A DNA stretch of 36,566 nucleotides from Microbispora sp. (lineage in GTDB: Bacteria > Actinomycetota > Actinomycetes > Streptosporangiales > Streptosporangiaceae). The stretch spans positions 1 to 36,566 of the forward strand of contig JADGHC010000005.1 of NCBI GenBank assembly GCA_019689655.1, written 5' to 3'. Position numbers and translations under genes: made by a program. This document shows positions 17,505 to 20,386 of the stretch, piece by piece. Under the pieces are notes generated by a model. The model made no database searches. It saw only the letters and a program-made list of their open reading frames with translations, and had not been told where the DNA came from. The number at the start of each line of letters is the position of its first letter. The first letter of the stretch is position 1.

Positions 17505-18563
17505 CTAGGCGACCAGGACGGGGTGAGGGAGCACCGAGTTGTGGCAGTAGCCGAGGGCGTTCCAGGGGGTGGCGTCCGGCTGGGCGCGGCCGTGCTCGTC
17601 GGTGGCCCGCACGCGCACGACGTGCGCACCCGGTGAGGCGTCCCAGGGGAACCGCCAGCGGGTCCAGACGCCCGCGAGGTCCGGCCCGTCCAGGACGGCG
17701 GGCCGCCACGGGCCGTCGTCGATCCGGTAGTCGACGGCGGCCACCCGGTCCTCCCCGGCGTACGCCCGGCCGCGGATCGTCTGCGGGCCGGGCCGCAGCC
17801 GCGCGGGCCAGGGCAGCTCGACCAGGCTCGCGACCGGGGTGGAGGTGATCGGCACGGCCGGCCGGCCGGGAGCGATGATCACGTAGTCCTCGGTGTTCCA
17901 CGGCACGCGCAGCGGCCGGTCGGACACCACGATCCGGCCCACCCACTTGATGCTCGCCGCGCCGAGCCAGCCGGGGACCACCACGCGGGCGGGGAAGCCG
18001 TGGTCGGGCGGCAGGATCTCGCCGTTCATGGCGAGCGCGAGCAGGGTGTCGGGGGCCAGCGCCTTGGCGAGCGGCATCGGGCGGCGTCCGCGCGCCTCGT
18101 CGAGCCCTTCCGGCATGACCTCGACGGCCGCGCCGGTGAGGCCCGCGGGTTCGAGCAGGTCACGCAGCGGGATCCCGGTCCATTCGGCGGTGCCGATCGC
18201 GCCGCGGTGCCACTGCACCCCGTCGAAGCGGCAGCCGTGCTCGGCGCCGAAGAGGGCGCGCCGGTTGCCCGCGCACTCCAGGGTGCGGACGACGGACACG
18301 AGCGGGAACCGGCGCCACAGATCGTCGTAGGAGTAGCCGATCGTCCGGCGCACGCCGCCGCCCTCCACACGCAACGTCCAGGTTTTCGGGTCGAGGCGGG
18401 GGGTCGGGGCGTGGTTGCGGACGAAAAACCGGTCGGTGGGAGTGATCAGGCCCGGCATGCGGTCGGGCCGGGTGCCGTAGTCGAGGCCGGTGCCCGCGTC
18501 CTCCATGAGGGAGGCCGCGAACGGCTTGGCCACCGGCGTGCGGATGTCGCGTGTCGTGCGCAT
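17505..18563 (-). CDS. Sulfite oxidase-like molybdopterin-dependent oxidoreductase
   Basis: 352 residues with the SUOX-type molybdopterin domain followed by a Mo-co dimerisation domain. The molybdenum-ligating Cys is in TLECAGNRRALF; other conserved pieces are RFFVRNHAPTP, WTGIPLRDLLEP, GFPARVVVPGWLGAASIKWV and the C-terminal YCHNSVLPHPV. No signal peptide or Tat motif is seen, so it appears cytosolic, and there is no heme domain. Plant-type sulfite oxidases share this architecture. Substrate and electron acceptor are unknown. It follows a 54-codon gene by 36 nt on the same strand. Confidence 0.92.
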   Translation of the reverse strand: MRTTRDIRTPVAKPFAASLMEDAGTGLDYGTRPDRMPGLITPTDRFFVRNHAPTPRLDPKTWTLRVEGGGVRRTIGYSYDDLWRRFPLVSVVRTLECAGNRRALFGAEHGCRFDGVQWHRGAIGTAEWTGIPLRDLLEPAGLTGAAVEVMPEGLDEARGRRPMPLAKALAPDTLLALAMNGEILPPDHGFPARVVVPGWLGAASIKWVGRIVVSDRPLRVPWNTEDYVIIAPGRPAVPITSTPVASLVELPWPARLRPGPQTIRGRAYAGEDRVAAVDYRIDDGPWRPAVLDGPDLAGVWTRWRFPWDASPGAHVVRVRATDEHGRAQPDATPWNALGYCHNSVLPHPVLVA

Positions 18564-18599: not shown

Positions 18600-18764
18600 T
18601 CAGCCCAGGTCGTGGCCGGCCTTCCGGGCGTGCTGCTGCGCCCAGGACGCCAGGCGCGACCAGCGCCGGGCCGCGATGAGGCGGTTGGCGACGCGGGCGT
18701 TGTCGGCCTCCCGGCGCAGCTCGGTCATCCGTTCGGTGGCCAGGGAGTAGTCGTAGAACATCAT
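18600..18764 (-). CDS. 54-residue protein of unknown function
   Basis: Starts at tandem ATG codons (18764/18761) with AGGGGTGG upstream. It is predicted to be a single long amphipathic, highly charged helix: YDYSLATERMTELRREA, then NRLIAARRWSRLASWAQQ. Short proteins of this Met-x-Arg-x-Leu-Arg-Arg-Glu-Ala type are common in actinomycetes, often annotated as hypothetical. It sits 36 nt before the sulfite-oxidase-like gene and directly behind the palindrome at 18781-18816, so the two genes may form a repressor-controlled operon. Confidence 0.72.
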   Translation of the reverse strand: MMFYDYSLATERMTELRREADNARVANRLIAARRWSRLASWAQQHARKAGHDLG

Positions 18765-18780: not shown

Positions 18781-18816
18781 GTTGTAACTGTCCTAATTTT
18801 CTTAGGCAGTTACAAC
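18781..18816. promoter_or_regulatory. Large palindrome, GTAACTG-type operator 1
   Basis: GTTGTAACTG and CAGTTACAAC are perfect 10-bp arms. Inside them CCTAA and TTAGG form a second pair around TTTTC, offset by one unpaired T. Each half contains GTAACTG-(N)CC-TAA. It lies 17-52 nt upstream of the 54-codon gene, on top of its likely promoter. A repressor operator is likely; it lacks a terminator tail. Confidence 0.65.
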
Positions 18817-18832: not shown

Positions 18833-18862
18833 GTAACTGGTCAAGTTGTCTTGGACAGTTAC
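18833..18862. promoter_or_regulatory. Second GTAACTG-type palindrome at the arsR end
   Basis: GTAACTG (18833-18839) and CAGTTAC (18856-18862) are inverted, with GGTCAAG and CTTGGACA extending the similarity to the palindrome at 18781-18816. The four half-sites fit GTAACTGNCCNAAG, two of them on each strand. It overlaps the last codons of the arsR gene. Confidence 0.55.
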
Positions 18863-19194
18863 GATGGTCTGGCCGCTTGGGCGTCGTACGCGTGGACGAC
18901 GGTGTCGAGCAGGCCGGGGAAGAGGGCGTCGAGATCCTCGCGGCGCAGCGAGCTCATCTTCGCGGTGCCCCGATAGACCTGCCTGATCACGCCCGCCTCG
19001 CGGAGCACGCGGAAGTGGTGGGTGGTCGTCGACTTGCTGACCGCCAGGTCGATCGCCGAGCAGGAGGACTCCCCGTTGTCGGCGAGAAAGCGCACCACCT
19101 GGAGGCGTACGGGATCGGACAGCGCGTGCAGGACGGCCTCCAGCCGGATCTCGGACCGGTCCGGGTGGTCGAGCGTCCGGGGCTGGGGCGTCAT
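18859..19194 (-). CDS. ArsR-family winged-helix repressor
   Basis: 111 residues with the ArsR/HTH_20 fold: ALSDPVRLQVVRFLAD in the first helices, SCSAIDLAVSKSTTTHHFRVLREAGVI as the recognition helix-turn-helix, and a short wing. The ELCVCDL metal-binding Cys motif of classical ArsR/SmtB proteins is absent; a single Cys precedes the HTH. So it may sense a non-metal ligand or redox state. Divergent from the old-yellow-enzyme gene across the 56-bp palindrome at 19205-19260, its most likely binding site. Confidence 0.9.
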   Translation of the reverse strand: MTPQPRTLDHPDRSEIRLEAVLHALSDPVRLQVVRFLADNGESSCSAIDLAVSKSTTTHHFRVLREAGVIRQVYRGTAKMSSLRREDLDALFPGLLDTVVHAYDAQAARPS

Positions 19195-19204
19195 CGGGCT
19201 CTCC

Positions 19205-19260
19205 TTGTACGACGGTTATCGTAGTTTGACAGTTAACGTACTACGAAGGTTATCGTACAA
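19205..19260. promoter_or_regulatory. Nested palindrome with 17-bp-spaced repeats (ArsR operator)
   Basis: Outer arms TTGTACGA / TCGTACAA and inner arms TCGTAGT / ACTACGA share one axis (between 19232 and 19233). Superimposed are three direct repeats, GTTATCGTAG (19215), GTTAACGTAC (19232) and GTTATCGTAC (19249), exactly 17 bp apart. TTGACA at 19226-19231 is a perfect -35 for the rightward old-yellow-enzyme gene. Very likely the operator controlling both divergent genes. Confidence 0.78.
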
Positions 19261-19288
19261 AAGCCTGTCGTGACGAGAGGAGAGCTGA

Positions 19289-20386
19289 GTGAGCGCGTTG
19301 TTCGAGCCCCTGACCCTGCGGGACCTGACCATCCCCAATCGCGTCTGGATGTCGCCGATGTGCCAGTACAGCGCGGCGGTGGAGGGGCCCGAACAGGGCG
19401 TCCCCACCGACTGGCATCTCACCCACCTCGGCTCCCGGGCGGCGGGCGGGGCCGGTCTGATCATCGTGGAGGCCACCGCCGTGTCCCCCGAGGGGCGGAT
19501 CAGCCCCGCCGACCTCGGGCTGTGGAACGAGCGCCAGCAGGAGGCATTCGGCCGCATCACCCGGTTCCTCACCGAGCAGGGCGCGGTCCCCGGCATCCAG
19601 CTCGCCCACGCCGGGCGCAAGGCGTCCACCGACCTCCCGTGGCGGGGCGGCGTGCCGGTCGGCCCCGAAAACCACGGCTGGCAGCCGGTCGCGCCCAGCC
19701 CGATCCCGTTCGATGAGGGCTACCCGGTGCCGCGGGAGCTGAGCGAGGCGGACATCCGGCGGCTGGTGGACGCCTTCGCCGCGGCCGCCCGCCGCGCGCT
19801 CGCGGCGGGCTTCAAGGTGGTGGAGATCCACGGCGCCCACGGCTACCTGATCCACGAGTTCCTGTCGCCGTTCGGCAATCGGCGCACCGACGCGTACGGC
19901 GGCACCTTCGAGAACCGGACTCGTCTCGCACTGGAGGTGGTCGACGCGGTGCGCGCCGAGTGGCCGGACGACCTGCCGGTGTTCTTCCGCGTCTCGGCCA
20001 CCGACTGGCTGAGCGAGAACCCCGAAGACCCGCGCGAGGGCTGGACGGCCGACGACACCGTGCGGCTGGCCAAGGAGCTCCTCGCCCGCGGGGTGGACCT
20101 GCTCGACGTCTCGACGGGCGGCATCGCGCCGGGGGCCCGCATCCCCCTGGAGCCGGGCTATCAGGTGCCGTTCGCGGCCCGGGTGAAGGCGGAGACCGAC
20201 CTCGCCGTCTCGGCCGTAGGGCTCATCACCGAGCCGCGCCACGCGGAGGAGATCGTGGCCTCCGGGCAGGCCGACGCGGTGATGCTCGGGCGGGAGCTGC
20301 TGCGCAACCCCTACTGGCCGATCAACGCGGCACGCGAGCTGGGGGCCCAGGTGCGCCGGCCCGACCAGTACCACCGGGCGTACTGA
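19289..20386 (+). CDS. NADH:flavin oxidoreductase, old yellow enzyme (YqjM type)
   Basis: 365-residue FMN TIM-barrel enoate reductase. The YqjM-class Cys is in SPMCQYSA; QLAHAGRKAS, EIHGAHGYLIHEFLSPFGN and RTDAYGG hold the substrate-binding and FMN-contact residues; SAVGLITEP and VMLGRELLRNP are the phosphate-binding end of the barrel. It reduces activated C=C bonds of enones or quinones. GTG 19289 has GAGAGGAG upstream. Divergent ArsR regulator and operator suggest induction by electrophiles or quinones. The ArsR/OYE pairing is common in actinomycetes. Confidence 0.95.
   Translation: MSALFEPLTLRDLTIPNRVWMSPMCQYSAAVEGPEQGVPTDWHLTHLGSRAAGGAGLIIVEATAVSPEGRISPADLGLWNERQQEAFGRITRFLTEQGAVPGIQLAHAGRKASTDLPWRGGVPVGPENHGWQPVAPSPIPFDEGYPVPRELSEADIRRLVDAFAAAARRALAAGFKVVEIHGAHGYLIHEFLSPFGNRRTDAYGGTFENRTRLALEVVDAVRAEWPDDLPVFFRVSATDWLSENPEDPREGWTADDTVRLAKELLARGVDLLDVSTGGIAPGARIPLEPGYQVPFAARVKAETDLAVSAVGLITEPRHAEEIVASGQADAVMLGRELLRNPYWPINAARELGAQVRRPDQYHRAY

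Follow-up and report, generated by a model that had tools for sequence, protein, structure and literature searches.

The closest described counterpart of the locus analysed here is the CyeR-cye1 system of Corynebacterium glutamicum, which is reportedly the subject of Ehira et al. 2010. According to the parts of the secondary sources available to us, CyeR is an ArsR protein that controls the old yellow enzyme (OYE) gene cye1 under oxidative stress (PMC8960804; also PMC7532634), so that a redox gene pair of ArsR and OYE is already known. The same parts of PMC8960804 place CyeR in one similarity cluster with RexT, state that its redox response relies on the equivalent of RexT Cys41, mention a second cysteine seven residues away, refer to a suggestion that it acts as a monomer and describe this mode as native to Mycobacterium and Streptomyces. 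RexT itself is described there with the operator ATTCG-N15-CGAAT, a vicinal C40-C41 pair and thioredoxin as its target. By its description in the available text of PMC7950407, the PyeR/XenB pair of Pseudomonas aeruginosa is an analogue, in which an ArsR-family autorepressor accompanies the xenobiotic reductase gene xenB in an operon raised by HOCl; unlike the genes reported here, these lie in a single operon, pyeR-pyeM-xenB, and are not divergent. On the DNA side, BldC of Streptomyces forms oligomers on repeated DNA sites of variable length (PMC5859096, as far as its available portion goes), but BldC is a MerR-like protein that sits asymmetrically, head-to-tail, on direct repeats, whereas in the present case each repeat is itself a dyad and the protein is an ArsR.

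The window, by which we mean the whole analysed stretch of 36,566 nucleotides of Microbispora sp. (contig JADGHC010000005.1), contains an arsR gene divergent from an OYE gene. We consider it probable that positions 19205-19260, between the two, are their shared operator, silenced by an ArsR of the CyeR/RexT kind and released by modification of a cysteine. The features are as follows.

18859 to 19194, minus strand: arsR, coding for a 111-aa regulator (ArsR/HTH_20) that is of one kind with RexT and CyeR and has the single cysteine Cys45
19289 to 20386, plus strand: OYE gene, NADH:flavin oxidoreductase, NamA/YqjM-like, 365 aa (393.7 bits against the NCBIfam NamA model, under its cut-off of 431)
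19208 to 19223: predicted operator unit 1, TACGA-N6-TCGTA, 10/10 arm bases; arm columns of 1.76-2.00 bits in 76 aligned promoters
19225 to 19240: predicted operator unit 2, 7/10 arm bases; its left arm, TTTGA, contributes to the proposed OYE -35
19242 to 19257: predicted operator unit 3, 10/10 arm bases; the proposed OYE -10 extends over part of its right arm
19226 to 19231, plus strand: proposed OYE -35, TTGACA, from the sequence; exact in 67/76 promoters
19251 to 19256, plus strand: putative OYE -10, TATCGT (TANNNT); TATCGT in 61/76 and TANNNT in 69/76 promoters
19204 to 19209, minus strand: possible arsR -10, TACAAG; TACAAT in 55/76 relatives

A repeat search of the window returned three 16-bp units beginning at 19208, 19225 and 19242, with a period of exactly 17 bp, and direct reading places GTTATCGTA at 19215-19223 and 19249-19257 and GTTAACGTA at 19232-19240, again at offsets of 17 bp. 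The array spans 19208-19257 and its basic element is a 16-bp dyad, TACGA-N6-TCGTA, tandemly repeated. It is not due to chance: when dinucleotides were shuffled, a three-unit run at the 17-bp period arose in 0/20000 versions of the intergenic region (94 bp) and in 0/300 versions of the whole window, and a motif-free repeat test that allowed any period from 10 to 27 gave 0/2000. An earlier note on this DNA had described three repeats spaced by 17 bp between arsR and the OYE gene, which both the reading and the repeat search recover and the shuffles never reproduce. The nested palindrome that it also described is present as a symmetry (inverted arms 19205-19225 and 19240-19260, 71% complementarity in the repeat search), but not as a separate design; tandem palindromes read nearly alike on either strand, so the shared axis is automatic, and the palindrome and the direct repeats are a single design rather than two.

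Within the window only units 1 and 3 reach at least 8/10 arm matches. Unit 2 is imperfect because its left arm doubles as part of the -35, and its deviation is kept in relatives, with T for A in 74/76 promoters and T for C in 71/76. The overlap of the repeats with a perfect -35, which had been pointed out before, is borne out by TTGACA at 19226-19231. The proposed -35 and -10 of the OYE gene are 19 bp apart; a sigma-70 scan limited to spacings of 16-18 bp found no promoter, and a spacing of 19 lies outside its range. What weakens the arsR -10 candidate in the window is its overlap with AAGGAGAG, the likely Shine-Dalgarno sequence. One base separates successive units, so that adjoining half-sites abut, and the junctions themselves are imperfect in the window (TCGTAGTTTGA and ACGTACTACGA). 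The exact junction TCGTA-N-TACGA is absent from the window, and the genome search found three copies elsewhere. We dropped a site centred on the junction, as it has no exact copy in the window and lone arsR promoters retain the N6 dyad. An N6 spacer puts the half-site centres 11 bp apart, which suits one winged-helix dimer.

Beyond arsR, two more dyads of 30 bp, resembling GTAACTG...CAGTTAC, lie at 18784-18813 and 18833-18862 with starts 49 bp apart. The second touches the end of arsR, and both are upstream of a small ORF and of a molybdopterin oxidoreductase gene (17505-18563, minus strand). Such dyads are recognisable in the five nearest loci (L002-L006) and are possibly the operator of another regulator. 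The small ORF (18602-18763, minus strand, 54 aa, starting MMFYDYSLATER) is conserved in L001-L006 and had no Pfam match.

In order to evaluate the conservation of the array, we assembled 110 loci from two sets. The first comprised the best 30 ArsR matches among 200 family genomes, 145 of which had some ArsR match at E 1e-12, and the second the best 80 of 577 confirmed ArsR relatives in public genomes, mostly Streptomyces plus genera such as Microbispora, Nonomuraea and Sphaerisporangium. An arsR and an OYE gene diverge within 600 bp in 88 of these loci and do not in 22; removal of 11 duplicates left 99 distinct loci, 79 divergent and 20 non-divergent. Since the loci are the closest ArsR relatives and come from related actinobacteria, the counts are not independent of one another and do not amount to random sampling. 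The CyeR-type adjacency of an ArsR gene and an OYE gene is present in the window as it is, divergently and within 600 bp, in 79/99 distinct loci, and each of the best 30 family loci has an OYE gene within its 1.5-kb flanks (30/30), 26 of them divergent.

At a threshold of 7/10 arm bases per unit, 76/79 distinct divergent promoters, at loci chosen by ArsR similarity, have at least three in-register units; the full count is three units in 68, four in seven, five in one, two in two and one in one. Once these 76 promoters are aligned in register, 29/30 arm columns reach at least 1.2 bits, the exception being the first base of the right arm of unit 2 (0.42 bits), and 12/18 spacer columns fall below 1 bit. 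Of the six stronger spacer columns, one, a pyrimidine, belongs to unit 1, two to unit 2, where CA follows TTTGA, and three to unit 3, namely G and TA; the CA of unit 2 and the TA of unit 3 are probably promoter bases. The spacing of 17 bp accounts for 165 unit pairs, and the next commonest spacing below 34 bp, 14 bp, for 22. What the alignment presents is, by its sequence, a tandem operator with a conserved period and several in-register sites.

The loci where the OYE gene is not divergent allow the two promoters to be seen apart. Among the arsR promoters of the 20 distinct loci of this type, 15 have one unit (two of them scoring merely 7/10), two have two, two have three and one has none. All 14 distinct OYE genes found at these loci have units of their own (14/14, one to five each), with at least three in seven cases, two in three and one in four; a five-unit run stands upstream of the separated OYE gene of L074. 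The OYE gene was absent from the fetched flank in 6/22 non-divergent loci. Because arsR promoters with one unit stand against OYE promoters with several when the genes are not divergent, the single dyad appears to be the elementary ArsR site, and its multiplication would belong mainly to the OYE promoters. Five of these loci (L024, L026, L030, L063 and L070) have an arsR dyad of TCCGA-N6-TCGGA, in which both arms are altered together; the dyads of their convergent OYE genes retain TACGA-like arms, and the arm change is therefore not common to both sites.

The search was also extended independently of the protein. A scan for the array with at most two mismatches matched in 24/100 family genomes and its reversed control in 0/100, each match lying 25-82 bp from an arsR homologue; the pattern is strict, so that a missing match does not imply missing dyads. 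One match, in genome G025 (L177), belongs to an arsR divergent from a zinc-type dehydrogenase rather than an OYE gene. The exact dyad occurs at four places in the host genome, two in this array and the others on contigs C545, where it sits inside a long ORF, and C540. With at most one mismatch the dyad has 37 genome places against 15 for the reversed pattern, and a near-match on C601 was inspected in this single-dyad search. Near the end of C540 (L179, 65-108), beside an ORF, there are two dyads 28 bp apart, with TACGAG/CTCGTA arms and a weaker copy.

We further compared 38 ArsR regions, of which 33 more distant ones (L141-L173) came from a class-wide search. None of these 33 has an OYE match at E 1e-5 within 3.8-4.4 kb, so that this search located no CyeR-like OYE pairs in other families. 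Four of the remaining regions (L174, L175, L176 and L178) are arsR/OYE pairs with arrays. Three units are found in L141 and L177, and two units at 17 bp, with TTTGACA within the array, in L142, L143, L145 and L147. Nine regions (L150-L152, L154, L156, L157, L161, L162 and L173) have two separate dyads of the TTCGA type, 43-50 bp apart, and L148, L149, L163 and L167 have no unit at 7/10. The conserved cysteine is missing from the ArsR in 2/38 regions (L160 and L166). Pfam searches of six neighbours identified MFS proteins in L141, L150 and L173 and zinc-binding dehydrogenases, which we take to be quinone-reductase-like, in L142, L145 and L177. L173 is from the window's own genome (contig C725); there the gene of a paralogous ArsR diverges from that of an MFS protein, and the two separate TTCGA-N6 dyads stand 47 bp apart.

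As far as comparison goes, the shared-operator reading is supported by the tandem array and the degree to which it is conserved, by its association with this ArsR and by the split between one-unit and multi-unit promoters. The earlier idea that several ArsR sites control both genes fits the conservation of the array, the same split and the arsR-only context of the scan matches, and may to that extent be retained. How the units would work together is a more delicate question. Tentatively, we picture one-cysteine, CyeR-like ArsR dimers assembling on a lattice of 17 bp, on different helix faces since 17 bp is about 1.6 turns, and touching where half-sites abut; the number of units would tune the response, one giving soft autoregulation of a lone arsR and three to six a sharp, oxidant-triggered OYE switch, and zinc-type (quinone-reductase-like) dehydrogenase genes, together with at least one MFS gene, may have come to use the same lattice. 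It is somewhat unlikely, albeit a serious contender, that the ArsR units instead bind independently and with no cooperativity, the 17 bp being kept only since the -35 and -10 hold units 2 and 3 in place. The proposed promoter elements do lie in those two units, and the two-unit promoters of L142, L143, L145 and L147 likewise hold TTTGACA within the array, as independent binding would have it. However, among dyads of at least 8/10 outside the best triplet, seven (in six loci) keep the lattice outside the core promoter, and the five that are off register each share at least two bases with an array unit; this register suggests contact between neighbouring ArsR units. The five-unit run before the separated OYE gene of L074 likewise speaks against independence, as does the single base between neighbouring half-sites, which abut so closely that contact is likely.

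That some other regulator reads the array, the neighbouring ArsR being incidental, appears improbable. TACGA/TCGTA arms do not by themselves point to an ArsR protein, and the excess of near-matching dyads in the host genome over the reversed pattern, the C540 pair included, would be compatible with a second reader, but in 24/24 array-bearing genomes the array stands beside an arsR homologue, 19/20 non-divergent loci have an arsR with at least one unit, and TTCGA/TACGA-N6 dyads also accompany related arsR genes whose neighbours code for MFS proteins or zinc dehydrogenases.

The regulator itself belongs to the ArsR/SmtB family by Pfam (HTH_20, 39 bits against a cut-off of 27; HTH_5, 32.3 bits against 22), and the fold search, made only with the one of five AlphaFold models that reached a pLDDT of 87.6 (the other four were at 55-60), agrees. 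RexT is its nearest solved structure by sequence (E 5.6e-30) and the best match of its predicted fold (TM 0.86, 52% identity). The equivalents of Arg26, Lys50, Arg61 and Cys41 of RexT of Nostoc sp. PCC 7120 (PDB 7TXM/N/O), whose roles we take from the available parts of PMC8960804, are by alignment R30, K54, R65 and C45, all four invariant in 99/99 distinct loci. Unlike RexT, the window ArsR has a single cysteine and hence no vicinal pair, its divergent neighbour is the OYE gene and not a thioredoxin gene, its proposed operator has a spacer of N6 and not N15, and the position of Asn77 is Ser (Asn in 82/99 loci). It resembles CyeR, as portrayed in the same parts of PMC8960804, in family, in its OYE neighbour and in the cysteine at the RexT Cys41 position, but differs in that a dimer is proposed here and a monomer suggested there, and in lacking the second cysteine seven residues off, which was present in 1/99 distinct loci. 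Without that cysteine a one-cysteine mechanism is needed, be it a mixed disulfide, a sulfenic acid, an adduct or an intersubunit bond. The aligned ArsR segment contains one cysteine in 61 of the 99 loci, two in 34 and three in four, that is, at least one further cysteine somewhere in the segment in 38/99. That the ArsR senses a metal or metalloid and not electrophiles or the redox state is very improbable: the generic metalloregulator model of NCBIfam does match, though at 48.5 bits it falls short of the cut-off of 55, but C45 is the only cysteine in 111 aa, no CXC pair of the helix 3 metal site is found, RexT is nearest both by sequence and by fold, and the neighbour is an OYE gene. The lack of a classical cysteine metal site, read earlier from the sequence, is hence upheld, with a redox sensor as the nearest structure.

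We rejected as scarcely credible a role of the dyads as RNA structure, in an attenuator-like leader instead of protein sites, since the better folding of the 94-nt plus strand than of its shuffles (z -2.98, equalled by 1/200) is partly the pairing of the complementary Shine-Dalgarno stretches 19198-19205 and 19278-19285, the array has no terminator-like site and the OYE mRNA would, if the -35/-10 assignment is right, exclude most of the array.

In regards to the shared operator, we infer binding, one dimer per dyad, repression, cooperativity, the promoter assignment and the cysteine switch, in the following sequence of events. The thiol-bearing ArsR repressor would sit on every TACGA-N6-TCGTA dyad, most likely in dimeric form, and three adjoining sites on the 17-bp lattice would cover the proposed -35 and -10 of the OYE gene and extend into the arsR promoter, so that occupancy of the array would silence both genes. 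Oxidation or alkylation of C45 would then weaken the hold of ArsR on DNA, and oxidants, quinones or enones would thereby lead to production of the OYE reductase and of its own repressor. By analogy, an oxidant or electrophile as inducer would agree with what the available parts of PMC8960804 state on CyeR and RexT.

The modular 17-bp operator looks undescribed: in the literature covered, to which the original CyeR paper does not belong, we recognised no description of a tandem ArsR array or of a Streptomyces ArsR/OYE operator. OYEs are credited with great biotechnological potential, and their physiological roles are described as not fully resolved, in the accessible text of PMC5891007. The molecular details of the response of one-cysteine OxyR homologues and of CyeR are called enigmatic in the available parts of PMC8960804, and the present locus bears on such one-cysteine redox sensing. 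A conserved modular operator in many Streptomyces and relatives would tie OYEs to a thiol-bearing regulator and predict their inducers, and the naturally occurring promoters, which range from one site to six, may serve as a test of how the number of sites relates to the sharpness of a redox switch.
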